NCBI RefSeq assembly: GCF_029688865.1
Contig: NZ_JARUKV010000027.1
Location: 1 to 64,000 of the forward strand
Direction of reading: 5' to 3'
Origin: Natronococcus sp. A-GB7
Lineage (GTDB): Archaea > Halobacteriota > Halobacteria > Halobacteriales > Natrialbaceae
Length of the DNA: 64,000 nt
Part shown: positions 7,654-22,674 of the stretch, piece by piece
How the letters are laid out: each line of letters opens with the position of its first letter
Numbering within the stretch: position 1 is the stretch's first letter
Made by a program: the position numbers and the translations under genes
The notes under the pieces: generated by a model
Database searches by the model: none
What the model saw: the letters and a program-made list of their open reading frames with translations, nothing else
What the model was told of the DNA's origin: nothing

Positions 7654-9372
7654 ATGCCGACCGGAGGGATCGCACTCGCGGCAGACTTTGCGCTGTTGAT
7701 CGCCGCGGCAACGCTACTGAGTTATATCGCCCGACTGACGGGACAGCCGACGATCGTCGCCTACATCATGACCGGCGTCGTCGTCGGGCCGATCGGCCTC
7801 GGGATCGTCGCCGAGGATCAGTTGATCGAGGTGATGGCCGAACTCGGGCTCGGCTTCCTGCTGTTCCTGCTCGGGATCGAGATGCGTTTCGACGACATCA
7901 AGGAGATCATGCGCCCCGTCGGGGCGATCGCGGTCGGGCAGGCGCTCCTGCAGGCGATCGCCTCGACGAGCGTTGCACTCTTGCTCGGCTTTACGCTCTA
8001 TCAGTCGCTGATGATCGCGCTGGCGACGACGTTCGGCGCGACGCCGATCATCGTCAAGGTGCTCGGCGACAAGGACGACCTGAAGACGCTGTACGGCAAG
8101 ACCGACGTCGGGATCCTCATCTTCCAGGACATCTACCTCGTGCTGGCACTCGCGATCCTGGCCGTCGGCACCGTCGACGACGTCACCGAGGTCGCGTTCA
8201 GCATCGGACAGGTGCTGTTCCTGATGGGCGTCATCGGCGTCGTCGCCTACCTCGGGAGCAAGTACTTCCTGCCCGCGCTGTTGCGGGCCAGCGCCGCGAA
8301 CAAGAGCACCCTGTTTACCGTTGGCATCGCCTGGGCGTTCCTCTTCATCTTCGCGGCCGAGACGCTCGACCTCTCGGTCGAGATCGGTGCGTTCCTCGCG
8401 GGACTCGCGCTCGCACAGCTTCCCTACAGCACGGAGCTCAAAGAGCGGATGCGACCCGCGACGAACTTCTTCATCGCGGTCTTCTTCGCGAGCATCGCCC
8501 TCCAGATGGAGGTCGACCAGCTGCTCGCCTACTGGCAGGAGGCGCTGATCGCGAGCGTCGCCCTGATCGTGATCAACTTCTTCATCGTCTTCGGGCTGTT
8601 CTACAGCCAGAACTTCGACATGGAGACCTCCTTCCTGGGGACGATCTCGATGCTCCAGGTCAGCGAGTTCTCGGTCGTGCTTGGCGCCCTCGCTGTCGAG
8701 GAGGGGTTCATCGAGGAGGGGCTGCTCGGCTTCTTCAGCCTGATGGCGCTCGTCACGATGCCGATCTCGACGTACTACGTCCGGTACAACCGCGAGATCT
8801 ACGCGCACGTCAAACCGTACCTCGAGCGATTCGAGCCCGACGACCCCATTCAGGCCGAACCGGTCGAGTACGAGAACCACGCCGTCGTCGTCGGCTACAA
8901 CCGACTCTCGAGCGAACTCATGAACGTACTGGATGACCACGTCGAGGAGATCGTCGTCGTCGAGGATAGAGCCGAACACGTCGAAGAACTCCAGGAGGCC
9001 GACCACGGCTTCATCTTCGGCAACGCTAGACACGGCGAGATCCGCCAGGAGGCGAACCTCGCCGGCGCGGAGGTTCTGATCACCGTCGCCGACCGGGTCG
9101 ACGTCAACGAGCGCCTCGTCGAGGAGTCGCCGGAGACGCTTTCGATCGTGAGAGCCAACACTGAACTCGAAGCCACGCGGCTCACCGAGGCCGGGGCGGA
9201 CTACGTGGTCATGGAGCGTGGGCTCGTTGGCGAGGAGCTGGCGGACCTGCTCCAGACGCTCGACGACCGCGAGGCGTTCGAGGACCGCCTTGCGGAGCTC
9301 AACGCGCGGGCCCGCAGCGAGCCGAGGCGGACCAGCGAGCCCGCCAGCACCGGAGGTGAGACCGATGTATGA
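7654..9372 (+). CDS. CPA2-family cation:proton antiporter with TrkA-N domain (type A of pair 1)
   Basis: A 572-residue membrane protein. Residues 8-385 form 12-13 hydrophobic segments of the KefB/C type, with QPTIVAYIMTGVVVGP at 31-46 and the antiporter acidic site FQDI at 157-160. Residues about 405-545 form a cytoplasmic TrkA-N Rossmann domain, normally the nucleotide or ligand sensor. Its glycine loop is degenerate: GYNRLS instead of GxGxxG. It probably exchanges K+ or Na+ for protons. The next antiporter gene starts inside its last codons (8-base overlap), so the two proteins are made together. Confidence 0.9.
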   Translation: MPTGGIALAADFALLIAAATLLSYIARLTGQPTIVAYIMTGVVVGPIGLGIVAEDQLIEVMAELGLGFLLFLLGIEMRFDDIKEIMRPVGAIAVGQALLQAIASTSVALLLGFTLYQSLMIALATTFGATPIIVKVLGDKDDLKTLYGKTDVGILIFQDIYLVLALAILAVGTVDDVTEVAFSIGQVLFLMGVIGVVAYLGSKYFLPALLRASAANKSTLFTVGIAWAFLFIFAAETLDLSVEIGAFLAGLALAQLPYSTELKERMRPATNFFIAVFFASIALQMEVDQLLAYWQEALIASVALIVINFFIVFGLFYSQNFDMETSFLGTISMLQVSEFSVVLGALAVEEGFIEEGLLGFFSLMALVTMPISTYYVRYNREIYAHVKPYLERFEPDDPIQAEPVEYENHAVVVGYNRLSSELMNVLDDHVEEIVVVEDRAEHVEELQEADHGFIFGNARHGEIRQEANLAGAEVLITVADRVDVNERLVEESPETLSIVRANTELEATRLTEAGADYVVMERGLVGEELADLLQTLDDREAFEDRLAELNARARSEPRRTSEPASTGGETDV

Positions 9373-11026
9373 TATTCTGTTCGCGCTGACGCTGATCTTC
9401 GGCGTCGCAGCGCTGCTGTTGCTCGTCGCCGCCCAGCGAGATCTCCCGGTGATTCCGTTCTACCTGATCGCGGGAGTTCTCATCGGCTTCGCGATCGACG
9501 AGAGCGAGCTGCTCGATCTGGCCCAGTGGGGGATCGCCTTCCTCGTCTTCCTCTTCGGGACCAACGTCGACCTCGAGTCGTTCCGCTCGACCGGGCGAAC
9601 CAGCGTCGTCATCGGCGTCGTGCAGGCGATTGTCGTCGGCGGGCTGGCCGGTGGCGGCGCGCTCGCGTTCGGCGTCGATCCGCTGAACGCCGTTTACTTC
9701 GGCGTCGCCGCGGCCCTGAGCTCGTCGCTCGTCGCGACCAGCTACCTCGACACCGACGAGGGCGTTCGACCGACCCACGCGCAGGTCGCCGAGTCGATCC
9801 ACTTCACGGAGGACCTGCTGGGCGTCCTCGTCGTGTTGGGTCTGAGCGCGTTCGTCTACGCGACCGAGCCGGCCCCCTCCCAGCTCGCGGTCGGCGCCGG
9901 GCTGTTCGTGCTCGCACTCGGCGTGCGGTACCTCGCGTTCCACCGCATTACGAGCAGGCTCCGGGGGGATTCCGAGGTGATGATGCTGTTCGGGATCACG
10001 CTCGCGATCGGCTTCATCGCGCTCGCTGAAGTTGCGAACCTCTCGATTATCGTCGGCGCGTTCGCCGCCGGAATCGCCGTCGCCGACGACTACCCACACT
10101 CGCTCGAACTGGTCGACACGATCGACGACCTCGAGGACTTCTTCACGCCGATCTTCTTCGTCACCGTCGGCGCTCTGCTGGCGATTCCGACGCTCGAGAC
10201 GATCGGTTATACGGCCGCGCTGGTCACGGCGGTGCTCGTCCTCAATCCGCTGATCGTCGGGTTCCTCCTGCTTCGCGCCGGATTCGACGGACGGACGGCC
10301 GTCCTGACGGGGCTGACACTGGATCAGGTCAGCGTGTTCAGCCTCTTCATCGCGATCGAGGCGCTCATCGCCGAGACGATCGCGCGGCCGCTGTTCGACG
10401 CGATCGTGCTCTCGGCGGCGATCACGATGTTCGCGGCGACGTATACGGCCCGCAACGCCGAGGACATCAACCGCTGGCTCCGCGAGCGCGGGCTCGTTCG
10501 TGCCGTCGGCAAACCGATCGGGGAGAAGACGAACGTCGACGACGGGCTCGAGGACCACGTCATCGTTACCGACTTCGAACACGGCGGCGAGCACGTCCTC
10601 AAGGCCTGCTCGGAGCTCGATCGACCGGTCGTCGTCGTCGAGGACAACCCGACGCGGTTCGACGACGTCCGCGACCTCGCCGACAACTACGTCTACGGTG
10701 ACGTGTTGAACGATCGGACCTGGGACGTCGCGGGACTCGAAACGGCGGCGCTCGTCGTCTCGCTCTCGCCCGAACTCGCCCGCGCCGAGGCGATCGCCGA
10801 TCTCGAGACGGACACCCCCCGGGTCATCCGGATCGATTCGGCCGACGACGCCGGGACGTTCCTCGAGCGCGAGGCGACCGGCGTCGTCTACCCCGAGGCG
10901 ATCACGGCCGAGCGGGTCGGGGACGATCTCGAGGCGTTGCTTACCGACGACATCTCTCACGAGGAGTTCCTCGAGCGTAGCCGGACATTCTTCGAGGACC
11001 CGCCGTACCCAGATCAGGAATCGTAG
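9365..11026 (+). CDS. CPA2-family cation:proton antiporter with TrkA-like C-terminus (type B of pair 1)
   Basis: A 553-residue protein from the ATG at 9365 (YDILFALTLIFGV), which overlaps the preceding antiporter gene by eight bases. A much longer upstream frame exists, but it lies inside the previous gene. About 12 membrane segments occupy residues 1-370. At the acidic site it has FTEDLL where type A has FQDI. The C-terminal domain (395-553) has the TrkA-N fold pattern, but its glycine loop reads DFEHGG, so nucleotide binding is doubtful. Likely partner of the type A protein. The last ~69 bases of its gene recur at 15769-15837. Confidence 0.9.
   Translation: MYDILFALTLIFGVAALLLLVAAQRDLPVIPFYLIAGVLIGFAIDESELLDLAQWGIAFLVFLFGTNVDLESFRSTGRTSVVIGVVQAIVVGGLAGGGALAFGVDPLNAVYFGVAAALSSSLVATSYLDTDEGVRPTHAQVAESIHFTEDLLGVLVVLGLSAFVYATEPAPSQLAVGAGLFVLALGVRYLAFHRITSRLRGDSEVMMLFGITLAIGFIALAEVANLSIIVGAFAAGIAVADDYPHSLELVDTIDDLEDFFTPIFFVTVGALLAIPTLETIGYTAALVTAVLVLNPLIVGFLLLRAGFDGRTAVLTGLTLDQVSVFSLFIAIEALIAETIARPLFDAIVLSAAITMFAATYTARNAEDINRWLRERGLVRAVGKPIGEKTNVDDGLEDHVIVTDFEHGGEHVLKACSELDRPVVVVEDNPTRFDDVRDLADNYVYGDVLNDRTWDVAGLETAALVVSLSPELARAEAIADLETDTPRVIRIDSADDAGTFLEREATGVVYPEAITAERVGDDLEALLTDDISHEEFLERSRTFFEDPPYPDQES
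10943..11011 (+). repeat. Antiporter C-terminal coding segment, copy 1 of a direct repeat
   Basis: These 69 bases encode TDDISHEEFLERSRTFFEDPP near the end of the antiporter. They match 15769-15837 in the same orientation at about 63 of 69 positions by hand alignment. The two copies are 4.8 kb apart and bracket the transposase remnant and the second antiporter pair. Confidence 0.85.
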
Positions 11027-11238
11027 CTTACCGTTTGCACGCTTCGGGTCGGATTCCATTTATGTCGAATGCCCAATCACTCTCTAGTTGAGCCAGATTG
11101 AGGAACGAGCAGGTCGTTGGATTGACTTGGACTACTGCTCGCAGCCTGCTCAGCGAGAGCTACGGCGCGGATTTAGGAGAAGTTTGGGAGAACGAGCGGA
11201 CGGCGACGTTCACGAGAGCAAAGCTCTTGTGCAGCCAA

Positions 11239-11259
11239 TCAGAACGCGAAGCGTTCTGA
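11239..11259. other. Perfect 9-bp hairpin in the IS-remnant region
   Basis: TCAGAACGC and GCGTTCTGA pair perfectly around a GAA loop. It lies in non-coding, less GC-rich DNA between the antiporter gene and the transposase remnant (11027-11463). I see no other intact feature there. It may be a relic of a mobile-element end. Confidence 0.4.
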
Positions 11260-11463
11260 GGACACCGGTCAGGACGTTCGCGTCCAACTCCACGCCATTG
11301 GTTATTGATCCGAGAGATGAACGATTCTCGAGGAAAGAGGCGTTGAAACCCCTCACAGAGCCGCCTGTCACGAGGTTCCTCAGATGGTTGACATCCTTTC
11401 TGGCCCGCCGTCAGCTTCGCCGACCCGGGGCGCGGTTGACAAGAACGGTGCCCAAATCAGTGG

Positions 11464-11825
11464 TGAACTGTCTTAGTGCAATAGACCTCGACACGAAGCT
11501 AATTCTTGACGTCCAGGTATTCGGACGCCACGGCACCGATCCGGCAGCTGCGTTCCTGTATGGACTCCGTGAGAAACACGATCTCTCCGGGGCAGTGTTT
11601 CTCGTCGATCAGTTTGGCTATCGGACTGCCCCTGTCCGGTTAGGAATGAACGGTCGAGTAGACTACATCGACCGAAACCTCGGTCGAAAAGTGGTTTCCT
11701 ACGCTCAAAATCCGGATCGACCGGTTCCATAACTCAGCGATCGGCAGCAAAACGTCACAGCACACTTTAATCGACGGAGCACCGTGCAGACGCTGCTCAA
11801 TCGAGAGTTGACGGCGACGGAATGA
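11464..11825 (+). pseudogene. Degraded IS6-like transposase remnant
   Basis: The first part encodes AIDLDTKLILDVQVFGRHGTD and VFLVDQFGY, matching the first two Asp positions of the DDE core of haloarchaeal IS6-type transposases. After about 11700 the match continues in another frame (VEKWFPTLKIRIDRFHNSAIG, with the Glu of the triad), then in a third frame (HFNRRSTVQTLLNRE), ending at the TGA at 11823. At least two frameshifts and the missing N-terminal third show it is dead. Terminal inverted repeats are not identifiable. 11826-11995 holds nothing I recognise. Confidence 0.75.
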
Positions 11826-11995
11826 TCGGAAATGATACCAGTTTTAGGGCTCAGACAGTCCACAACAGGTGTTCCACGCCTAATCCGTCTCAGTTGTGTT
11901 TGATAGTGGAATTATGAGGGGAGAAAGCGCAAGTGTTGTGTCCCCTCTCATACGCTAACAAAAGACGATACCATACATTTGAGCTGCGGAGAATG

Positions 11996-13807
11996 TTAGC
12001 TGTCGAGATCTCCGGTGTGCGACGTCGATTCCGCAGCGGAAGACCGAGGTGGTGCACGCTCCGTGTTCAGTTCGTTCATGCTCTCCGCTCGTAGTTCGTC
12101 GGGATCGTACTCCCCCTTCAAGAGTGCCCCGAGGCTGTCGGTGAGCTGGTCGGCTGCGAGGAGGCCCGGAACGATGACGTACGTAGCCCCTCGCTCGATG
12201 AGCTCGGCGGCCATCGGCAACTCGCTGGTCCGGACGACGACGTCAGTGGTATCGGCAAACGACAGGAAGTGTTCCGTGGCTGACTTTGATTCAGCGGTGG
12301 AGATGATTAGTTGCGCCGCCTCGAGGTTGGACACGTCCGTCGTTTCCGGTTCGATTGCGTCGGCGAATACGTAGGCATCGCACTCGGCCCGGAGATCGGA
12401 CAGTGCATGCGGATTGTTCTCGATCACGACGTACGGCTGGTCAATCTCCTCGCAGAATTCGACGAGTCGTCGGCCGTGTCGGCCGTACCCAACGATGACG
12501 ACGTGGTCGGAAATATCCTCAGGGACGAAGTTCCAGTCGTCGACATCGTGATACGGCTGACCGAGCCAGCCGCGACTGGCCATGATCTCGTAGATTTCCT
12601 CGTCGTACGTGTGAGTTAGATTCGAGAGGATCATCGACACTGCTGCCGCAAGGATGATCGCTTCGAACACCGGCTCGATCAGGAATCCGAGGACGAGCGC
12701 CTCGATGGCCACGATGACACCGAACTCACCGACGTGGTCCAGATTGAGTCCCGTAACCGTCGCCGATCGCCTGTCGTACCCGTTGTATACGAGCAGGACG
12801 CCGATGACGATCGGCTTGATAACGACCGTCAGGACAACGAGCCCGAGAGCGATCGTGGCGACGGGGACGAAGGGAGCTATGGCAGCCGACGGATCGGCCA
12901 CTACCGCGGTCAGCGGGGGTAGTGTGACTAAGGCTCCAACAGTGGCGAAGAAGATCGCAACGAAGAATTCCTGGATCGAGTTCAACCCGTTGAACACCTC
13001 CGAGTACTCGACTGGGTTGTCTCTGATTGCCAGTCCGGCGGCGAACGCGCCGACGACGATCGATGTTTCGAGGAACTCCGCTGCAGCGAGGAAGGCGATC
13101 AACAACGCTACGATGCTGATGAGCATCGCCTCGTCGGAACCACTGGTGAGTCGTTCCATGAGACCGAACAGGTACCGATTGATGGCGATTGCTGTACCGA
13201 CGAGTAGGACACCGTACCCGAGCTGTGTTGCGATCGGATCCAGCGCGAAGGTGCCGGCGCTGACGACGAGTAACAGCATCACCGCCAAAAAGTCGTTGAC
13301 CGAATCGATCTCGTTCGAAAGATAGTCGTGGACGATGTCGGACTGCGGTTCGGTAAACAGCGTCGTTCCAACGATCATCGACGAGAGGGCGGCTACGATC
13401 CCGACGAAGAGCGCCTGTTCGAGCGTCAGTGTATCTATGACTCCTCCGTCTGTGAGGATCCCGTACTCCAGTGCGATGCCGACCACGAGCGCGAAGGCAA
13501 GTCCGAGGACGCCGAGGACGAGCGCCTGAACGATCGCGACGACTTCGGTATCCGAGGTGACTGTACGGACGTGTTCAGTCTGAATCTGCACGCTGAAACT
13601 GAAGACGAGGAACGCGATTCCGAGCCGGGCGAGCTCGAGCATGAGCTCCTCGTCGATGAGACCCAGCTGTCCGACGAACAACCCCGCCAAGATGAGCGAC
13701 GGGATGATCGACAGCTGCAATCCCTTCGCGATCAGCAACAGCGGCCCGGCGACGACGAAAAGGATCGCCATTGCGGTGAGCAATGCGACGTCAGTCATCG
13801 TCACCAC
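11996..13807 (-). CDS. CPA2-family cation:proton antiporter with TrkA-N domain (type B of pair 2)
   Basis: A 603-residue protein (600 if the ATG at 13798 is used). It has 12-13 membrane segments in residues 5-400, then a TrkA-N domain (about 425-560) with an intact glycine motif GYGRHG, so this one can probably bind a nucleotide. At the antiporter acidic site it has VNDFLAV rather than QD. Its N-terminus (LSIIPSLILAGLFVGQLGL) resembles the type B protein of the first pair. It follows the type A gene of pair 2 with a 17-base overlap on the minus strand. Codon use and GC are lower than in pair 1, pointing to a different origin. Confidence 0.9.
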   Translation of the reverse strand: MVTMTDVALLTAMAILFVVAGPLLLIAKGLQLSIIPSLILAGLFVGQLGLIDEELMLELARLGIAFLVFSFSVQIQTEHVRTVTSDTEVVAIVQALVLGVLGLAFALVVGIALEYGILTDGGVIDTLTLEQALFVGIVAALSSMIVGTTLFTEPQSDIVHDYLSNEIDSVNDFLAVMLLLVVSAGTFALDPIATQLGYGVLLVGTAIAINRYLFGLMERLTSGSDEAMLISIVALLIAFLAAAEFLETSIVVGAFAAGLAIRDNPVEYSEVFNGLNSIQEFFVAIFFATVGALVTLPPLTAVVADPSAAIAPFVPVATIALGLVVLTVVIKPIVIGVLLVYNGYDRRSATVTGLNLDHVGEFGVIVAIEALVLGFLIEPVFEAIILAAAVSMILSNLTHTYDEEIYEIMASRGWLGQPYHDVDDWNFVPEDISDHVVIVGYGRHGRRLVEFCEEIDQPYVVIENNPHALSDLRAECDAYVFADAIEPETTDVSNLEAAQLIISTAESKSATEHFLSFADTTDVVVRTSELPMAAELIERGATYVIVPGLLAADQLTDSLGALLKGEYDPDELRAESMNELNTERAPPRSSAAESTSHTGDLDS

Positions 13808-15545
13808 CTACTCGATCCGTGATATCGGGGAACAGCCGCCCGCTTCGCAACAGTTCCATGTCGCCGGCAATCTCTCGGTCGAAGGTCGATCTGTCCGCGA
13901 AGTACGACTCGAGGTATTCGATGAACTGTGCGACGCCGAGCTGTGGCGCCAGAATAACGTACTTAGCACCCGAATCGTACAACTGCTCTGCCTCCTCGGC
14001 AGTCGCTGCCTCGACGAACACCGTCGTCTCCTCCGTTGTCTCTCTGAGCAAGATCTCGTTAGTCTCCAGTTGATCCGACGACGAGAACACGAAGTCGGCG
14101 TACTTCACACCGGCGTCCTTGCGAATCTTCTCGTACCGGACGTCACCGAACAGGGTATCGTACCCTGCGTCTTCGACCGCTTCGATGTGCTCGACGTTTC
14201 GGTCGATGACCACGATCTGGTCGTACTGGTCCTCGAGGATTCGCAACGCCCTACGCGCAATCTCGTCGTAGCCGATGACAACGACGTGGTTTCGATACTC
14301 CGTATCGGCCGGCTGGACGGGGTCAGATTGCTCCCATCGCGAGAGGTACGGTTCCACGCGCTCGAACAGCTGTCGGTTGTACTGAATGAAGTACACCGAG
14401 ACGCTCATCGTCATCAGCGCGACGAGGGTGATGAAGCCGAGCTCAGCTTGGCCGATAAACGGAGGCTCGCTCTCGACCGCAGCGACAGCGACGACGATGC
14501 CGAACTCACTGACCTGAATCATCCCGATGCTGCCGAGGAACGTCGTCTCGAGATCGAATCGCTGCCAGTTGAGAAGGAGGAAGAAGACGACAAACTTGAC
14601 GATCATCAATCCCACGGCGACGGCGACCGCTTCCTGCCAGTATGCGAGGAGATCGCTCGCTTCGAAGTCGAGAGCGACGGAGACGAAAAACACCATCACG
14701 AACAGGTCCGTCAACGGGTTGACCCGACCCTGGAGATCCTTGCTGTAGGGCAGCTGGGCGATCGCCAGCCCGGCGAGGAACGCCCCCATCTCGATTGAGA
14801 GGTACGCGTCGACCCCGATCGGCGACAGGAGGACGTTGATCTGGTCGGATACGAGGACGAACAGAAAGAGCCACGAAATAGCGACGAGAAAAAGCAGCCT
14901 CGTATCGTCGGCGATTCGTCTAAAGAGCGACGGGAGCACGTATCTGGACGCAGCGATCGCCGCAACGGTAGTGACCGTGACGAGCACCATCACGATTCCA
15001 AGCGTCATCGCGACGTCGGCGATACCGTCGGGCCGGCCTGCGGCCAGCACCGCGAGAATAATGACGACAACGATGTCCTGGGCGAGGAGTACGCCGACAT
15101 CGATCTTGCCGTGCAGCGACGTCGCCTCGCCCTTGTCGTTGAGCATTTTGATCACGACGGCCGTCGAACTGTACACCACCGCCAGCCCGATGATCACCGC
15201 CTCCTCGAATGAAAATGGGAGAAGGACTGCAAAACCAAACCCGACGGCTCCGACCGCGATCATCTGGGGAATAGATATCTTTACGATCGGTGCGATGAGA
15301 TGGCGGATTTCATCGATTCGCATCTTGATACCGAGCAAAAACAATAGAAACGCGAGCCCGAGTTCGGCCATCGTGTCCGTGATGATGCTCGGTTCCACGA
15401 GTCCGAGTCCGACCGGGCCGATCACGACGCCGGTAAGAATATATCCGATGATCGTCGGCTGTCCCAATCGAACCGCAAGAACCCCGACGAGTGCAGCAGC
15501 GACGAGGATAATAGCTACATCATTCGCGAGGCCGACATCGACCAT
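13791..15545 (-). CDS. CPA2-family cation:proton antiporter with TrkA-N domain (type A of pair 2)
   Basis: A 584-residue antiporter and the first gene of the inverted pair. The N-terminus QPTIIGYILTGVVIGPVGLG and the site AQDIVV match the type A protein at 7654. The C-terminal TrkA-N domain (from about 425) has a degenerate glycine loop, GYDEIA. The DNA is visibly less GC-rich: 15301-15360 has 29 G/C of 60 by hand count, against about 60 percent or more in the neighbouring genes. Substrate probably K+ or Na+ against H+. Its promoter would lie in 15546-15633. Confidence 0.9.
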   Translation of the reverse strand: MVDVGLANDVAIILVAAALVGVLAVRLGQPTIIGYILTGVVIGPVGLGLVEPSIITDTMAELGLAFLLFLLGIKMRIDEIRHLIAPIVKISIPQMIAVGAVGFGFAVLLPFSFEEAVIIGLAVVYSSTAVVIKMLNDKGEATSLHGKIDVGVLLAQDIVVVIILAVLAAGRPDGIADVAMTLGIVMVLVTVTTVAAIAASRYVLPSLFRRIADDTRLLFLVAISWLFLFVLVSDQINVLLSPIGVDAYLSIEMGAFLAGLAIAQLPYSKDLQGRVNPLTDLFVMVFFVSVALDFEASDLLAYWQEAVAVAVGLMIVKFVVFFLLLNWQRFDLETTFLGSIGMIQVSEFGIVVAVAAVESEPPFIGQAELGFITLVALMTMSVSVYFIQYNRQLFERVEPYLSRWEQSDPVQPADTEYRNHVVVIGYDEIARRALRILEDQYDQIVVIDRNVEHIEAVEDAGYDTLFGDVRYEKIRKDAGVKYADFVFSSSDQLETNEILLRETTEETTVFVEAATAEEAEQLYDSGAKYVILAPQLGVAQFIEYLESYFADRSTFDREIAGDMELLRSGRLFPDITDRVGGDDD

Positions 15546-15696
15546 CTCTTATTTCACCACTACCCCTGCTTTTCTTGAAAGGCTCAAAAGTCCACGGCAT
15601 GATTTGCCAAAGGACAAAAACGGTGATCGGTCGGTGTTTGTCGTACGGAACGGCGCCGCTCAGTCGGCTGGGTACACCGTTCTATCCAGAAGACTC

Positions 15697-15768
15697 GGAA
15701 TCGCTACAGAGGACGCCGGCCCAGCGAGTTCGACCTCCTTTGCGATCGCGGGACTGGCCGCGCTGCCT
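15697..15768 (+). repeat. Direct repeat of the permease gene segment 16149-16220
   Basis: 72 bases align without gaps to 16149-16220 inside the permease gene, with about 59 identities by hand count, in the same orientation and reading frame. The match ends exactly where the antiporter-tail repeat begins. Confidence 0.8.
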
Positions 15769-15837
15769 ACCGGCGACATCTCTCACGAGGAGTTCCTCGA
15801 GCGTAGCCGGACGTTCTTCGGGGGCCCGCCGTATCCG
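15769..15837 (+). repeat. Antiporter C-terminal segment, copy 2 of the direct repeat
   Basis: Copy of 10943-11011 (about 63 of 69 identical). It directly abuts the permease-derived repeat, so the junction at 15768/15769 records a recombination between a permease gene and a type B antiporter gene. Confidence 0.85.
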
Positions 15838-16046
15838 AGCGGAGAACGTACCTGACTCCTTGCATATTACAAGTCGGTACGTATCCATCGGGAAACCCAC
15901 TGTTCGGTTACTGTGTTATCGCACGCGTTCGGCGGTCGTCTTCTCGAGCGATCTGTTTGTCGGGTCGTACAGCCATCTTCGGGTGCTGCAAACACGGAAC
16001 GAACGGGCCACGCTCGCTCGCACGTCGCCTCCGACGGGTGGTGCTC

Positions 16047-18314
16047 GTGAGCGACACCGAGGGAGAACTCGCCCGCAACCTCGGTTTCACCGAGGCGATG
16101 ACGATGGGTGGCGGAACGATGATCGGCGCCGGAATCTTTATTCTTCCCGGAATCGCTGCGGAGGGCGCCGGTCCGGCAAGTTCGATCTCCTTTGCAATCG
16201 CCGGGCTCGCCGCTCTGCTTGCGGCGATATCGCTGTCGGAACTGGCGACCGGGATGCCGATCGCCGGCGGGAGCTACCACTACGTCAACCGCGCGCTCGG
16301 CAGTCTCTTCGGCAGCATCGTCGGCTGGGGGATGTGGACCGGACTGATGTTCGCGAGCGCGTTCTACATGATCGGGTTCGGGCAGTACCTCGTCGAACCG
16401 ATCCCGTTCTTCAGCGGCCGCGCGCTGGTGATCCTGTTCGGACTACTCGGGCTCGCCTTGCTCGTTGGCGTCAACTACTACGGCACCGAGGAGTCGGGAT
16501 CGTTCCAGAACGTCATGATCGGCCTGGAACTCGTCGTGATCGTCGTCTACCTCGTCGTCGGCTTCTTCTATATCGACGCTGCGAACCTCGAGCCGTTCGC
16601 GCCGACGGGGCCGAGCGGGATCATCGCGACGACCGGGCTCGTCTTCGTCACGTTCCTCGGGTTCGAGATCATCGCCACCGTCGCCGAGGAGGTCAAGAAC
16701 CCCGGCAAGAACATCCCGCTGACCATGATCCTCTCGGTCGTCTCGGTGACCCTGCTGTACGTGATCGTCATGATCGTCAGCACCGGGGTCGTGCCGTTCG
16801 ACGAACTGGGTGACTCGCTCGTCCCGGTCGGCGACGTCGCCGAGGTGTCGATGGGGGCGGCTGGCGTCGCCGCGATCGTCGCCGCCGCGGCGCTGGCGGC
16901 GATCTCGAGCTCGAACTCGTCGATCCTCGCGGCCGCACGGGTCGTCTTCGCGATGGGGCGAGACAACCTGATGCAGGACTGGTTGAACACGACCCACAGC
17001 CGGTTCCGAACGCCACACCGCGCCGTCATCGCGACCGGACTCCTGACCGGACTGCTGGTCGCCGCCGGCCTGCAGGTCGAGGCGATTATCGAGGTGCTGG
17101 CCGAGGTGGCCAGCTTCAGCTTCCTCGTCGCGTACTCGCTCGTCCACGCCGCCGTCGTCGTCATTCGGCGTGCGGAGCCGGAGGACTACGAGCCCGACTT
17201 CGAGATCCCGTCCGTCCTCTACCCGTGGGTACCGATCGCCGGCATCGCACTCTCGATGCTGGTCATCACACAGATGAACCTCGCCGTCATCGGAATCGGG
17301 ATCGGAATCATCGTCCTCGGGATCGTCTGGTACTTCCTGTACGCTCGACGCCAGGATATCGACCAGAGCCTCGTCGGCGACGCAATCGTGAACGGTTCAG
17401 AGGGAGGCAGCGTCGACGTCGACGAGGACCGATACAGGGTCGTCGTTCCGATCGCGAACCCGGAGACCCAGAAAAACCTGCTTCGGCTCGCCGCGGTCAG
17501 CGCGCGCACTCACTCCGAGGGCGAGACGCCGGAAATCGTCGCCGTCAACATTACCCGGGTTCCGACCCAGACGGCGCTCGAACAGGAGCTTCAGTTCGAG
17601 GAACAGCGCGTCGAAACCCAGCGCGAACTGCTTCAGAGTGCCCGCGAGGCGGCCGCCGATCTCGACATCAGCCTGCGAACGCGGGCGATTCTCGGACGCG
17701 ACATCGGTCAGACCCTGCTGACGGTGCTCGAGGAGGAAGCGGCTGACCAGGTGGTGCTCGGCGATCGCGGGCACGGACGGCGGACGAAGGAGTACATCTT
17801 CGGGTCCACGATCGACCCCGTGTTAAAAAACGCTCCGTGTGACGTAACGATCGCCAACCTCCGGCGGGACGAGATCGGCGATGTCGTCGCGCTCGCCGGT
17901 CCCGGACCGCACGCGCCGGTGGCCGCCCGGCGCGCAGCCGAGTTCGCGACGCTCTCGGGAACGACGCCGACGCTGCTGAACGTTCAACCACCCGGCGACG
18001 GAGACGAAGACGACGATCCGATCGCGCAGGGCGAAGCGGTGATCGAGGACGTCGCAGAGACGGCTGGGGTCAAGAACTACGAGAGCAAGGTGCTCGTTTC
18101 CGAGGACGCCCAGTCGGCGATCCTCGAGGAGGTCGACGGCTACGACACCGTCTGTGCTGGCGTCTCGGAGAAAAGCAGCGTCTCGAAAATCCTGTACGGA
18201 TCGATCGCTGAGACGGTCAAGCAACAGACCGACGGCAGCGTCGTGATGGTCCGCGGGCCGTACGAGACCCACTGGGAGATCACCGAGGCGGTCGCCGAAC
18301 GGCTCTCCGCGTAG
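16047..18314 (+). CDS. APC-family amino-acid permease with two C-terminal Usp domains
   Basis: A 755-residue protein that starts most likely at GTG 16047 (SDTEGELARNLGF), where similarity to other permeases begins; GTG 16041 is the alternative. Residues 10-440 form 12 membrane segments of the APC superfamily, with GGGTMIGAGIFILPG near residue 20. Residues about 465-610 are a complete Usp domain with the ATP signature GDRGHGRRTKEYIFGST. A second Usp domain (about 615-745) lacks a clear ATP loop. The Usp parts are probably cytoplasmic and regulate uptake. A segment of this gene (16149-16220) recurs at 15697-15768. The substrate cannot be told. Confidence 0.9.
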   Translation: MSDTEGELARNLGFTEAMTMGGGTMIGAGIFILPGIAAEGAGPASSISFAIAGLAALLAAISLSELATGMPIAGGSYHYVNRALGSLFGSIVGWGMWTGLMFASAFYMIGFGQYLVEPIPFFSGRALVILFGLLGLALLVGVNYYGTEESGSFQNVMIGLELVVIVVYLVVGFFYIDAANLEPFAPTGPSGIIATTGLVFVTFLGFEIIATVAEEVKNPGKNIPLTMILSVVSVTLLYVIVMIVSTGVVPFDELGDSLVPVGDVAEVSMGAAGVAAIVAAAALAAISSSNSSILAAARVVFAMGRDNLMQDWLNTTHSRFRTPHRAVIATGLLTGLLVAAGLQVEAIIEVLAEVASFSFLVAYSLVHAAVVVIRRAEPEDYEPDFEIPSVLYPWVPIAGIALSMLVITQMNLAVIGIGIGIIVLGIVWYFLYARRQDIDQSLVGDAIVNGSEGGSVDVDEDRYRVVVPIANPETQKNLLRLAAVSARTHSEGETPEIVAVNITRVPTQTALEQELQFEEQRVETQRELLQSAREAAADLDISLRTRAILGRDIGQTLLTVLEEEAADQVVLGDRGHGRRTKEYIFGSTIDPVLKNAPCDVTIANLRRDEIGDVVALAGPGPHAPVAARRAAEFATLSGTTPTLLNVQPPGDGDEDDDPIAQGEAVIEDVAETAGVKNYESKVLVSEDAQSAILEEVDGYDTVCAGVSEKSSVSKILYGSIAETVKQQTDGSVVMVRGPYETHWEITEAVAERLSA

Positions 18315-18433
18315 TCGGAACGGTTTCGATCGCTCGAGTTCGTCGCTTTTCACGATCGTTCCGGACGCCACACGCAAAAACCGGTTACGAGCGTCCGGGA
18401 CGCGTGTACTCCTCGGAGCTGACCACACTGGGC

Positions 18434-18571
18434 TCAGAACACGTAGTGGGCGATCTCCTGTGACCCGCAGTGAGGACACTCGTCGTGGTCGTCGAGCTTC
18501 CGACCGCAGTTTCTGCACTCGTACAGCTCTGTGCCACGTCTACCGGTTCGTAGCGCGTCGAGTACCCCCAT
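18434..18571 (-). CDS. 45-aa zinc-ribbon protein
   Basis: ATG at 18571 gives 45 residues (GVLDALRTGRRGTELYECRNC...) with two CxxC knuckles: C-R-N-C and C-P-H-C, ten residues apart. This is a rubredoxin-like zinc ribbon, one of many tiny zinc proteins in haloarchaea. A longer frame to 18649 would run into the promoter AT island and is less likely. The stop is at 18434. The function is unknown. Confidence 0.78.
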   Translation of the reverse strand: MGVLDALRTGRRGTELYECRNCGRKLDDHDECPHCGSQEIAHYVF

Positions 18572-18609
18572 CCGTAGTAGACGTTGTAGGTACACTATTA
18601 TTAATCCTA

Positions 18610-18630
18610 CTCTCGATTCCGGAACGAGAG
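18610..18630. promoter_or_regulatory. Dyad upstream of the zinc-ribbon gene
   Basis: CTCTCG and CGAGAG arms surround TTCCGGAA, with one unpaired A on the left side, giving a ten-base-pair dyad. It sits just upstream of the AT-rich TTATTAAT (18597-18604) that looks like the zinc-ribbon gene's TATA box. It may be a binding site; the regulator is unknown. Confidence 0.35.
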
Positions 18631-18747
18631 ATAAAAACGAGATGTGCATGCGTGAGCTGCGAGGCCGTACAGTTGCGGGAGTCCGTGAAACCGTGCTCTT
18701 CGCTGTCCGCAGCTTCGGAACCGAGCGTGCCGACTCTACGGAAGCGA

Positions 18748-18765
18748 CGGTCTCAATCGAGACCG
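18748..18765. terminator. Hairpin after the Lrp-TrkA_C gene
   Basis: CGGTCTC and GAGACCG pair perfectly around an AATC loop, 16 bases beyond the stop codon of the minus-strand regulator gene. No U-tract follows, so the terminator role is tentative. 18631-18747 shows nothing else. Confidence 0.35.
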
Positions 18766-18780
18766 AACTCGACGGCCGTG

Positions 18781-19524
18781 TTAGTCGTCGACCCCCTCGA
18801 ACGCTCTCAGGGCGGACTCGTCGAAGTCACTCCGGGAGAGGACCGTGAGGATGTCGCCGGCCCGAACCTCGGTGCCGCCCGTCGGCGTCAGGACGTCGTC
18901 GGTGCGCTCGATCGAGACCACCAGTGTGTCGTCCTCGAGCAGTCCCTCGTCGTCGGCCTGCTCCAAGGACTTGCCGACGATGGGCGCGTTGTCGTCGACG
19001 GTGATCTCGACGACCTCGTTCCCGCCCGCGAGGCTGATATAGTCCGAGAACTGCTGGTGGGTTTCCGCGGGTCCGAAGGCGTGGTAGGCCTGAAACTGCT
19101 CGGTCCGGACGAGCTTCTCGTCGTCGATCTCGAGGCCGAGCTTCGCCAGCTCGCGGGCGACGTCGTTCAGCGCCTCGACGTCCGGTCCGGTAGCGAGGAC
19201 GTGGAGGTTCTCCTCGCCCGCCACGAACTCGCGGACGTTGACGACGCCGGTGATCGTCCGTGCCTGCTGGGCGAGCCGCGGGCGCTCCTCGATCGGGGCC
19301 GTCGCCGTGTACAGCGTCGTGAGCATCTCGTCGGCGGCCTCGAAGTCGACGTTCGCGTGGTAGCCCCGGATAACGCCCGCGTTCTCCAGCTGGTCGATCC
19401 GGTTTCGGATCGTCGCCGGCGAGACGCCTACGTCCTCGGCGATCATCGGCGCGGAGGTGTTCCGTGCGTCCTGCATCAGCGCGTGGATGATGCGTTTGTT
19501 GACGTCGTCGAGACGAATGCCCAT
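18781..19524 (-). CDS. Lrp/AsnC-family regulator fused to a TrkA-C (RCK_C) domain
   Basis: A 247-residue protein that starts at ATG 19524 (GIRLDDVNKRIIHALMQDAR). Residues 1-60 are the Lrp winged helix (GVSPATIRNRIDQLENAGVI). About 65-150 is an Lrp-type ligand and assembly domain. From about 165 to 243 there is a TrkA-C domain (DNAPIVGKSLEQADDEGLLEDD ... VRAGDILTVLS). TrkA-C domains bind small ligands, c-di-AMP in several K+ systems. The gene is divergent from a TrkA-type channel gene, and a nested palindrome lies between them. It probably controls K+ transport in response to a ligand. Confidence 0.9.
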   Translation of the reverse strand: MGIRLDDVNKRIIHALMQDARNTSAPMIAEDVGVSPATIRNRIDQLENAGVIRGYHANVDFEAADEMLTTLYTATAPIEERPRLAQQARTITGVVNVREFVAGEENLHVLATGPDVEALNDVARELAKLGLEIDDEKLVRTEQFQAYHAFGPAETHQQFSDYISLAGGNEVVEITVDDNAPIVGKSLEQADDEGLLEDDTLVVSIERTDDVLTPTGGTEVRAGDILTVLSRSDFDESALRAFEGVDD

Positions 19525-19670
19525 ATCTGGGGTAACCGAGGGGACGAGATGGTTCCTCCCTTTCGGTTGCTGCCGCGGTCCGTAATCCAGACGCGATACC
19601 CCTACAGGAACGGACCGTTTGCCACCCTTCATCTCGATTTCGAATCCGCAATTGAAGGCCTAAGTAGTTC

Positions 19671-19698
19671 CGCAATACGAATAATATTGCGTCGTATT
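19671..19698. promoter_or_regulatory. Nested palindromic operator between the Lrp-TrkA_C and channel genes
   Basis: Two overlapping dyads share this segment. CGCAATA (19671-19677) pairs with TATTGCG (19685-19691), and AATACGA (19674-19680) pairs with TCGTATT (19692-19698). Both are seven-base perfect arms. The site is about 40 bases before the channel ATG, at the promoter, and about 150 bases from the regulator's start. Lrp proteins bind such dyads as dimers and higher oligomers. Binding by the neighbouring regulator is inferred. Confidence 0.5.
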
Positions 19699-19738
19699 TA
19701 CCGAAAGCCTAATAGCTCCCGTCTGATACCAGAGAACG

Positions 19739-21379
19739 ATGAAGGACTGGCGTCGCCGAATCGGGTACGCACTTCTGACTGTCGCCGCGATCATCGTCGT
19801 CTACTCGACGGTGTACCAGTGGGCGATGCTGACCTTCGAGGGACGCGAGATTCCCTTCTACAAGGCCGTGCAGGTCGTCATCGAGTCGCTCACGACCGCC
19901 GGGTTCGGCGGCCACGCGCCGTGGGAGAGCACGGTGTTGAACCTCTTGGTGATCGGGATGAACCTTACCGGCGTCCTGCTCGTCTTCCTCGGGCTACCGC
20001 TGTTCGCGATCCCCCTGCTTCGACAGGCCCTCGAGTCGGAACCGCCGACGACCAGCGCCCTCACCGATCACGTGATCGTCTGTGGTCACTCGACGCTCGA
20101 CGACGTACTCCGGAAGGAACTCGACGAGGTCGGGATCCCCTATCTCTTCGTCAGTCCCGACCCCGAGCTGGTCTCGGAGCTCGACGATCGGGGGATCGAC
20201 GCCGTCCACGGCGATCCGGAGCAGATTCAGACGCTCCGGAATGCCAACGCCGCGGAAGCGCGCGCCCTCGTCGCGGACGTCGACGACGAGGCGAACCCGA
20301 CGATCATCCTCTCGGCGCTTCGAATCAACCCCGAGATGCGGATCGTCAGCGTCGTCCGGGACTACAAGACGGCGACGTACCACGAGTACTCCGGCGCCGA
20401 CGAAATCGTACTGGCTCGCCAGCAACTCGGCGAAGCGTTCGGGAGGCGGGCGACGATCTCCTTCGCCGAGAAGCTCCGGAGCGTGATCGAGGTCGAAAAC
20501 GACTACGAGATCACCGAACTCCTGATCGAGGAGGGCAGCGATCTCGCCGGCTGCACTATCAGGGAGGCCGAAATCTTCGACCGTGAGGGGATCACCATCG
20601 TCGGCGTCTGGCTCGGCGGCAAGTTCGTGATCTCCCCCGATCCCGACACCGTCCTCGAGGAGAACACGATCCTCCTCGTCGCGGGCGGTCACGGCGGGTT
20701 CGAGGACGTCACCGCCCGGTCGATCCCGACTCACCACCACCCGTCCCGCGTCGTCGTCTGCGGGTACGGCACCGTCGGCTGGTCGGTGACCGAGACGCTC
20801 CGGGACGCGAACATCGACACCACCGTCATCGACCACGAGGACCGGGAGGGCGTCGACGTCGTCGGCGACGCGACCGATCCAGAGACCTACGAGAACGTCG
20901 ATATCAAGGACGCCGAGACAGTCGTTCTCGCGCTGGACGACGACACGACCACGATCTACGCGACGCTCGTCATCCGGGAGCTCGATCCCGATATCGAGAT
21001 CATCGCCCGCGCGGACGATCCGGACACCGTCTGGAAGCTGTACAACGCTGGCGCCGACTACGTCCTCTCCCTGCCGACGGTGACCGGCGAGATCCTGGCC
21101 TCGCATCTGATCGAGGAGGTCGAGATCGTCACGCCCCAGGTCCAGTTCGAGTTCGTCCGGTCGGCAGCGCCGTCGCTCGCCGGGATGAGTCTCAGCGACG
21201 CGGACCTTCGGGCCCGAACCGGCTGTACCGTGATCGGCATCGAACGAGACGGGGAGCTTCGAACCGACCTGACCGCCGAGTTCGTCGTCCGAGAGGACGA
21301 TATCCTCATCGCCGGCGGGAGCGAGGACGCCATCGAGCGGTTCGAGGACGCCGTCACGCCGGACCGGATCGCTCACTGA
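19739..21379 (+). CDS. Two-TM potassium-channel-like protein with two TrkA-N/TrkA-C modules
   Basis: A 546-residue protein. One membrane helix (10-31), a pore loop and a second helix (68-92) are followed by two complete RCK units: TrkA-N from about 108 (HVIVCGHSTLDD), TrkA-C from about 255, a second TrkA-N from about 340 (VVVCGYGTVGWS), and TrkA-C from about 470. The architecture is MthK-like with a doubled gating ring. The filter position reads TAGFGG (53-58) rather than TVGYGD, closer to the TxGF type of Trk/Ktr pores. It probably moves K+, with altered selectivity. It is divergent from the Lrp-TrkA_C regulator gene. Confidence 0.9.
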   Translation: MKDWRRRIGYALLTVAAIIVVYSTVYQWAMLTFEGREIPFYKAVQVVIESLTTAGFGGHAPWESTVLNLLVIGMNLTGVLLVFLGLPLFAIPLLRQALESEPPTTSALTDHVIVCGHSTLDDVLRKELDEVGIPYLFVSPDPELVSELDDRGIDAVHGDPEQIQTLRNANAAEARALVADVDDEANPTIILSALRINPEMRIVSVVRDYKTATYHEYSGADEIVLARQQLGEAFGRRATISFAEKLRSVIEVENDYEITELLIEEGSDLAGCTIREAEIFDREGITIVGVWLGGKFVISPDPDTVLEENTILLVAGGHGGFEDVTARSIPTHHHPSRVVVCGYGTVGWSVTETLRDANIDTTVIDHEDREGVDVVGDATDPETYENVDIKDAETVVLALDDDTTTIYATLVIRELDPDIEIIARADDPDTVWKLYNAGADYVLSLPTVTGEILASHLIEEVEIVTPQVQFEFVRSAAPSLAGMSLSDADLRARTGCTVIGIERDGELRTDLTAEFVVREDDILIAGGSEDAIERFEDAVTPDRIAH

Positions 21380-21408
21380 CGAGCCCGCTCGAGCGTCGAC
21401 CGGTTCCC

Positions 21409-22674
21409 TCAGCGCTCCACGAGCCGATTCATCGCCGGCGTCGCCAGCACGCCGTGACCGACGACCGAGACGAGGACGACGAGGCCGACGATCGCCCACA
21501 GTAGTTCGGCTTCGCGGAACGGTGCGGCGTTGAGTCCCCACGAGAGGTAGAAGAACGAGCCGATCCCGCGGATGCCGAAAAACGAGATGACGGCCCGTTT
21601 GCGGAACGCGAGTTCGGAGCCGAGAAACCCGACTATCCCCGCGATCGGACGAACGACCAGCAGGATCCCAAGGACGACGACGGTCGCCTCGAGCGTCAGC
21701 GGCGCGAGCAGCCCGTTCGCGAGCGCGCCACCGAACAGCACCATGATCGCGACCATCAGCAGGTGTTCGGCCATCTCCGCGACGCCGTGGAGTGCCTCGT
21801 GGTACTCGTGGCTGCGCTCGTACTCCCGGATCGTCAGCGCGGCGACGAACACCGCGATGAAGCCGTAGCCGCCGACGAGTTCGACCGCCGCGAACGCGAT
21901 CAGCGTTCCCGCGACGGCCTCGAGTCCCTGCACCGACCGCGAGAGCGGCGAGTCGGCCGAGAACCGGAAGACGACGACGGCGAGCAGCCAGCCGACGACG
22001 ATTCCTCCCACGACGCCGACGACGATCTTGTAGGCGACGTAGACGAGCAGCCACTGCCCGAGCCACCGACTCGGCGCGTAGCCGACGAACGCGAGGAGGA
22101 CGGCCAGGTAGGTAAACGGGAACGCGAGGCCGTCGTTGAGGCCCGCTTCGGAGGTCAGCGCGAACCGAACGTCGTCAGCGTCGTCACCGTCCGTCCCGCT
22201 TCCGTCCGAGTTCGACGGCGAGCTCCGGCCGGGGGGTCCGACCTGCACCTCCGAAGCGAGAACCGGATCGGTCGGCGCGATCGCCGCCCCGAGCAACAGC
22301 GCCGTCGGGAGCAGGAGTCCGGCGACGCCCCAGCCCAGCAGCGCCGCGCCGGCGATCGACAGCGGCATCGTGATCGCGAGCAGCCGAGTCGTCGACGCCC
22401 AGGCCGGCCAGCCGACGCGACGATCGATCTTCAGCCCCGCGCCCATCAGCGCGACGATCACGCCCAGTTCGGTCAACCGCTCGGCCTCGTCGGCGTGCTC
22501 GATCGGGTCGGGATACGGCAGCTCCGGCACGAGCGTGAACGCGACCGCACCCAGCGCGAGGTAGAAGATCGGCAGGGAGAGCGCGCGCTCCTCGAGGAGG
22601 CGAGTTAGCACGATCAGGGCGAGGATCGCGATACCCGCGACCAGCAAGCCGGCGACGAAGCCGTCGAGGACCAT
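21409..22674 (-). CDS. CPA1-type Na+(K+)/H+ antiporter
   Basis: A 421-residue membrane protein with about 12 hydrophobic segments. The CPA1 signatures are visible: APTDPVLASEV near residue 140 and SEAGLNDGLAFPF near 175, whose acidic residues form the ion site. A 20-residue Ser/Gly/Asp-rich insertion lies between them in a loop. There is no cytoplasmic TrkA domain, unlike the CPA2 antiporters upstream. It ends 29 bases from the convergent channel gene, so it closes the cation-transport block. Confidence 0.88.
   Translation of the reverse strand: MVLDGFVAGLLVAGIAILALIVLTRLLEERALSLPIFYLALGAVAFTLVPELPYPDPIEHADEAERLTELGVIVALMGAGLKIDRRVGWPAWASTTRLLAITMPLSIAGAALLGWGVAGLLLPTALLLGAAIAPTDPVLASEVQVGPPGRSSPSNSDGSGTDGDDADDVRFALTSEAGLNDGLAFPFTYLAVLLAFVGYAPSRWLGQWLLVYVAYKIVVGVVGGIVVGWLLAVVVFRFSADSPLSRSVQGLEAVAGTLIAFAAVELVGGYGFIAVFVAALTIREYERSHEYHEALHGVAEMAEHLLMVAIMVLFGGALANGLLAPLTLEATVVVLGILLVVRPIAGIVGFLGSELAFRKRAVISFFGIRGIGSFFYLSWGLNAAPFREAELLWAIVGLVVLVSVVGHGVLATPAMNRLVER

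Follow-up and report, generated by a model that had tools for sequence, protein, structure and literature searches.

The closest described relatives of the proteins considered here are CPA2 antiporters, some of which carry a regulatory RCK domain. KefC forms a homodimer that resembles NapA (PMC11150392). In Kef systems generally, a single protein whose GFGRFG loop is intact forms the homodimer, with KefF or KefG helpers and glutathione gating; in Escherichia coli, KefB is activated by a glutathione conjugate formed from methylglyoxal (PMC10224563). Methylglyoxal is also the link in KhtT-KhtU of Bacillus subtilis, a two-gene system in which KhtT is a soluble regulatory protein and KhtU a K+/H+ antiporter for methylglyoxal resistance (PMC5270733). 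YbaL/RosB-like CPA2 proteins with a KTN/RCK domain, a class named for both bacteria and archaea in a review of Kef systems (PMC10224563), are single genes. NapA and the other electrogenic CPA2 antiporters have no RCK domain and carry a Lys at position 8 of the CPA motif.

Here we describe paired genes, A followed by B, in a 64,000-nucleotide stretch of Natronococcus sp. A-GB7 DNA (hereafter, the window). Their products belong to a known kind, the Kef-type CPA2 antiporter with an RCK domain; judged from sequence, the best-supported reading of the pair is that one cation/proton antiporter is built from both proteins, A and B each being an obligate and specialised subunit, probably of an A:B heterodimer with the architecture of KefC and NapA. 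In the open-access literature searched, we found no account of a two-subunit CPA2 antiporter in archaea, nor of an obligate form in which one of the two subunits has a dead regulatory site.

A and B resemble KefC and KefB in fold and domain order, and A resembles them in its Q-D ion site as well. KefC is the top match to A1 and B1 by sequence and to A1 and B2 by structure—a PDB search with AlphaFold models of moderate confidence (A1, pLDDT 75.9 and pTM 0.65; B2, pLDDT 78.5 and pTM 0.75) placed it first for both proteins (E 2.8e-19 and 2.5e-15, respectively), with NapA second. However, A and B are two diverged subunits, and A lacks the loop that is intact in Kef. The pair proteins reach at most 175 bits with the NCBIfam KefB/KefC equivalog models, the cut-offs of which are 752-804, and five named plasmids show no annotated KefF/KefG ancillary oxidoreductase gene next to the pair. 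YbaL/RosB-like proteins have the length and domain content of A and B, but come without a partner gene, and the E. coli YbaL loop is intact (GYGRVG), unlike that of A. KhtT-KhtU shares with A-B its two genes and its place behind mgsA, the methylglyoxal synthase gene; however, A and B are both full membrane transporters.

The gene pairs of the window

A1-B1 lies on the forward strand (7654-11026) and A2-B2 on the reverse strand (15545-11996), so that the pairs converge. All four reading frames are open and full length, and all four products combine a Na_H_Exchanger domain with a C-terminal RCK (TrkA_N) domain, well over Pfam cut-offs (PF00999 plus PF02254; PF00999 scores of pair proteins are 89-178 bits against a cut-off of 26.2). 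The first-pass annotation had proposed two inverted A-then-B CPA2 pairs at 7654-15545 that face opposite ways and differ in GC content, and this is borne out: GC is 0.640 in A1 and 0.662 in B1 versus 0.582 in A2 and 0.594 in B2, in a window of 0.664. Identity is 41% between A1 and A2, 33% between B1 and B2, and 24% between A and B inside one pair.

A1 (7654..9372, forward strand; 572 aa) has a CPA2 transporter domain followed by a degenerate RCK/TrkA_N domain; read from its sequence, it carries FGAT (8032-8043), FQDI (8122-8133), INFF, in which Asn replaces Lys (8572-8583), and a broken RCK loop, GYNRLS (8893-8910). B1 (9365..11026, forward; 553 aa) has an E-D ion site within TEDL (9806-9817), followed by LNPL (10241-10252) and by DFEHGG (10571-10588), which stands where the RCK glycine loop is missing—a loss common to the subclade of B1. 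On the reverse strand, A2 (13791..15545; 584 aa) combines a Q-D ion site with YSST and Lys, its motifs being YSST (15162-15173), AQDI (15072-15083), VKFV (14589-14600), and the broken loop GYDEIA (14256-14273). B2 (11996..13798, reverse; 600 aa from the ATG at 13798) has an N-D ion site in VNDF (13289-13300), retains the Lys in IKPI (12809-12820), and has an intact RCK loop, GYGRHG (12473-12490). The motifs listed in the first-pass annotation, GQPTIVAYIMTGVVVGPIGLG and GQPTIIGYILTGVVIGPVGLG together with FQDI, AQDI, FTED, and VNDF, were all found again.

A third pair, A3-B3, lies on another contig of the same genome, so that each of three types is represented there by a single pair. Type I (A1-B1) has FGAT/QD/N in A and LSSS/ED/N in B, with the loop lost in both; type II (A3-B3) has FGAT/QD/N in A and LSST/DD/N in B, with the loop intact in B; and type III (A2-B2) has YSST/QD/K in A and LSSM/ND/K in B, again with the loop intact in B. 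The transporter domains of A and B share the fold of NapA, as the D-D site of type II B shares its ion-site residues; however, types I and II have Asn at position 8 in both subunits, where the NapA group has Lys.

The stop of A1 and the start of B1 overlap by 8 nt (ATGTATGA; 9365..9372, forward), as do those of A2 and B2 (ATGACTGA; 13791..13798, reverse); the two window pairs share the overlap ATGNNTGA, and A3-B3 also overlaps by 8 nt. Overlaps of 8 and 17 bases had been proposed earlier. The first figure stands, whereas the second becomes 8 nt when B2 starts at the ATG at 13798, 17 requiring the upstream GTG at 13807. Of 67 distinct pairs, 58 overlap by exactly 8 nt and three by 4 nt, the rest ranging from a 32-nt overlap to a 28-nt gap; in the RefSeq annotation of the five named plasmids it is 8 nt in four and 4 nt in the fifth. 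A fixed stop/start overlap is the usual sign of coupled translation, from which we infer that A and B may be translated together, at a ratio that would be close to 1:1.

The surroundings of the pairs hold several further features. An IS6-family transposase remnant lies between the convergent pairs (11088-11732; NF033587, 36.8 bits, below the cut-off), and two related clusters of the genus lack 11041-11503 but contain a counterpart of the sequence from 11504 onward. Debris at 15696-15836 joins a copy of an amino-acid permease N-terminus (83% to 16148-16218) to a copy of the B1 C-terminus (91% to 10934-11010). The repeated B1 tail (15760-15836) might suggest that A2-B2 was inserted recently in this genome, but we rejected this because two other genomes of the genus are collinear with it from 11504 to beyond 16000; for the same reason the debris itself is not recent. 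Beside the pairs is an ion-transport island (16041-22674) with an amino-acid permease fused to Usp domains (16041-18314), a TrkA_C-like regulator (18781-19632) and a channel-like protein with RCK-like domains (19739-21379), the last two assigned from sequence only, and a CPA1-type antiporter (21409-22674).

Pairing and inheritance of A and B

Profiles for A and for B were both run on the same 101 Natrialbaceae genomes. There, A-then-B pairs on one strand account for 113 of the 117 A genes and 113 of the 118 B genes; frequent single genes, which by the first-pass annotation would have spoken against its proposal, were not seen. Unpaired genes occur only in assemblies of 170-290 contigs, where contig ends may have cut off their partners, and in one decayed A/B chimera. 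The latter (genome G064; locus L128, 7034-8747) has an A-type N-terminal part, an in-frame amber codon (TAG), and a B-type remainder, and it scores equally with both profiles; its genome has retained mgsA with KhtT/KhtU-like genes. This single gene (C1:2755046) was weighed as a counter-example to pairing and rejected on account of its chimeric structure and in-frame TAG.

A is present in 43 of 92 high-quality Natrialbaceae genomes, with the same tally for B at a looser threshold; across the order A occurs in 46 of 293 genomes, and across the phylum B occurs in 11 of 295. Pairs are also found in metagenome-assembled genome records labelled Salinibacteraceae, Thermoplasmata, and one bacterium, where mis-binning is possible. 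Where pairs adjoin each other, 28 arrangements are convergent, 11 tandem, and none divergent; a small number of events probably gave rise to most of these clusters.

In a tree built by a quick method, which took E. coli KefB, KefC, and YbaL together with further CPA2 proteins as outgroups, A forms one clade (support 99) and B another (99), and the two are joined (92) apart from KefB, KefC, and YbaL. The first-pass annotation had proposed a single tree as a test of whether A and B separate, and no intermixing was seen. Nanohaloarchaeal A proteins lie at the base of the A clade and nanohaloarchaeal B proteins at the base of the B clade, so the duplication is old or the pair has been transferred as a unit. 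The A tree and the B tree match across 67 pairs (Mantel r 0.92), and swapping partners within genomes in 2000 trials gave at most r 0.60 and never 0.92. The matched trees show that pairs travel as units, although a match alone is no proof of physical contact. A and B appear to descend from an old duplication and are inherited together, mostly with the fixed 8-nt overlap.

Conserved adjacency and overlap would also fit two independent homodimeric antiporters needed in a fixed ratio, co-required in one operon and differing in ion or stoichiometry (for example, A exchanging K+ and B exchanging Na+ for H+). KefC itself is organised as such a homodimer (PMC11150392), and both A and B have complete transporter domains, with the TM5 Asp in nearly all of them and a differing residue before it. 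However, lineages with only one of the genes would be expected, and the 101 Natrialbaceae genomes contain no clear case; partners are not exchanged among paralogues either, though physical linkage alone could yield that. The regulatory domain, taken up below, bears on the same question; B1-type proteins lack the RCK loop as A proteins do, but the RCK domain of KefC works as an AMP-bound dimer, and an A homodimer would be without an intact loop in every lineage, back to Nanohaloarchaea. We regard two separate homodimers as improbable.

Ion site and nucleotide loop

Within the eight-position CPA motif (PMC6181914), A has Q-D at the ion site in all but two of 73 proteins, along with FGAT or YSST, and B has D, E, N, or Q before the Asp, with mostly LSST or LSSS in TM4. 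The TM5 Asp is present in nearly all A proteins and invariant in the B alignments. Q-D with Ser-Ser-Thr is a K+-type motif in a published CPA analysis (PMC6181914); measured against the full K+ motif, L-S-S-T/Q-D/Lys, A2 has YSST, QD, and K, the A proteins of types I and II have FGAT, QD, and N, and type III B proteins have LSST, LSSS, or LSSM with QD or ND and K. In the reading preferred here, the antiporter would exchange K+ for H+, as Kef does.

Position 8 (Lys307 of KefC, in TM10) is Asn in 48 and Lys in 25 A proteins, and Asn in 56, Lys in 38, and Ser in one of the B proteins; it is Lys in type III. By pair, 36 of 67 are Asn in both subunits, 22 are Lys in both, and nine are mixed. Covariation at this position was rejected as proof of coevolution; it may rest on few events and gives only weak support. 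Lys or Arg occupies position 8 in 95% of the superfamily (PMC6181914), so that Asn is unusual for CPA2, but it does not exclude membership.

The nearly invariant Q-D of A, the variable site of B, and a regulatory loop found only in B could together mean that only one subunit transports and that its partner, though transporter-like, serves regulation or assembly. B, however, retains the invariant, essential Asp and a small, Ser-rich TM4 motif, and is not visibly dead; we consider a single transporting subunit rather unlikely.

The strongest asymmetry between A and B lies in the glycine loop of the RCK domain: none of 73 A proteins has an intact GxGxxG, whereas 74 of 95 B proteins do. In complete pairs, nearly every B protein that lacks it is of the E-D type to which B1 belongs, and Nanohaloarchaea show the same split, with the loop broken in A and intact in B. 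Additionally, Arg496, which contacts the AMP phosphate in KefC (ligand contacts in PMC11150392), is kept in 92 of 95 B proteins and is mostly Glu in A. This asymmetry is independent support for a division of labour. The earlier proposal that A and B differ in their jobs, and may work as a two-subunit antiporter, is accordingly strengthened by the separate clades, the rarity of orphan genes, the matched trees, and the loop.

In the preferred two-subunit arrangement, the RCK domains of A and B would pair across the dimer, with nucleotide (AMP in KefC) bound only by the site in B and gating transport. A would supply the K+-type Q-D pathway, and regulation would come from B along with a second pathway that differs in character. 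With both loops lost, type I pairs such as A1-B1 are expected to be unregulated by nucleotide or otherwise regulated.

Methylglyoxal, alkaline habitats, and the purpose of the pair

Clustering of flanking reading frames showed that methylglyoxal synthase adjoins many pairs (NCBIfam NF003559 and TIGR00160, over cut-off). mgsA occurs in 81 of the 101 Natrialbaceae genomes; in 35 of the 40 that have both A and mgsA it lies within 10 kb of A, and in 25 directly upstream on the same strand at less than 800 bp. It is absent from eight genomes with A. In the genome of the window it lies 173 bp upstream of A3; A1-B1 and A2-B2 have no adjoining mgsA. A glyoxalase-family (VOC) gene is often found on the far side of mgsA, and TrkA_C-type proteins adjoin only eight of the loci compared.

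Where A-B is missing, many genomes carry behind mgsA, in this order, a TrkA_C protein, a roughly 430-aa CPA2 antiporter, and a HAD hydrolase. This looks like a haloarchaeal operon, mgsA - KhtT-like - KhtU-like - HAD hydrolase (L138, 6286-9366; L149-L151), the KhtT- and KhtU-like proteins being assigned by domain content and size, not by orthology. Other genomes have mgsA-A-B-HAD or mgsA-A-B-khtT-khtU in the same place; Natronorubrum bangense, for instance, has VOC-mgsA-A-B-HAD. The distributions of A-B and KhtU-like genes are complementary: 14 genomes have both, 35 only A-B, 47 only KhtU, and five neither (Fisher p 8e-11, a value that ignores kinship). We found no description of an exchange of A-B with KhtT-KhtU behind mgsA in the open-access literature searched.

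The link to methylglyoxal is drawn from gene position and from analogy with the known roles of KhtU and KefB, and it covers the mgsA-linked pairs, not the two window pairs directly. In pairs behind mgsA, K+ efflux coupled to H+ entry would acidify the cytoplasm, giving Kef/Kht-like protection against methylglyoxal; A-B would stand in for KhtT-KhtU in many Natrialbaceae, among which haloalkaliphiles are numerous. Tentatively, and with somewhat less than an even chance of being right in full, we propose an obligate heterodimeric CPA2 family, each dimer having a live and a dead nucleotide site, that displaced KhtT-KhtU behind mgsA as a methylglyoxal-linked K+/H+ exchanger, mainly in haloalkaliphilic archaea.

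Habitat suggests another purpose, one that leaves the subunit question aside. In a contig scan for relatives of A, most hits were soda-lake metagenome bins or species whose names point to alkaliphily, the names being our source for the phenotypes; the lakes behind the CSSed, T1Sed, and B1Sed series have a pH of about 10 (PMC6146748). This association is a lead and not a test, and we rejected alkaliphily as an absolute marker of the pair, as Natrinema plasmids carry it. The pair could thus serve general pH and salt homeostasis in haloalkaliphiles, such as Na+/H+ antiport at high pH, with the mgsA site a favoured landing site in a K+-transport region; the window pairs, set in an ion-transport island without mgsA, agree with this, as do the neighbours of the pair on Natrinema plasmids (mechanosensitive channel, Usp, and diadenylate cyclase). 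Against it stand the substitution of KhtT-KhtU downstream of mgsA with its complementary distribution, and the K+-type Q-D with Ser-Ser-Thr (PMC6181914). We hold a pH or salt purpose to be possible but on the doubtful side; both purposes may hold, for different pair types.

At three plasmid loci of Natrinema and Natronosalvus (L176, L179, L180), A-B lies within a few kb of genes for diadenylate cyclase, a mechanosensitive channel, and Usp; this grouping may be a c-di-AMP-linked osmotic or K+ module.

The genome paper of Natrialba magadii reported that genes needed for alkaline survival were not identifiable (PMC3403918). This species carries an A-B pair, and the distribution of the pair bears on that question. 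KefC, the RCK-bearing CPA2 antiporter of known structure, is built from two copies of one protein; a natural and widespread two-subunit form with one lost regulatory site would let us ask which protomer transports and which senses. Heterodimeric ABC exporters have served a like role in their own field. Finally, the link to mgsA offers a concrete physiological test in archaea.
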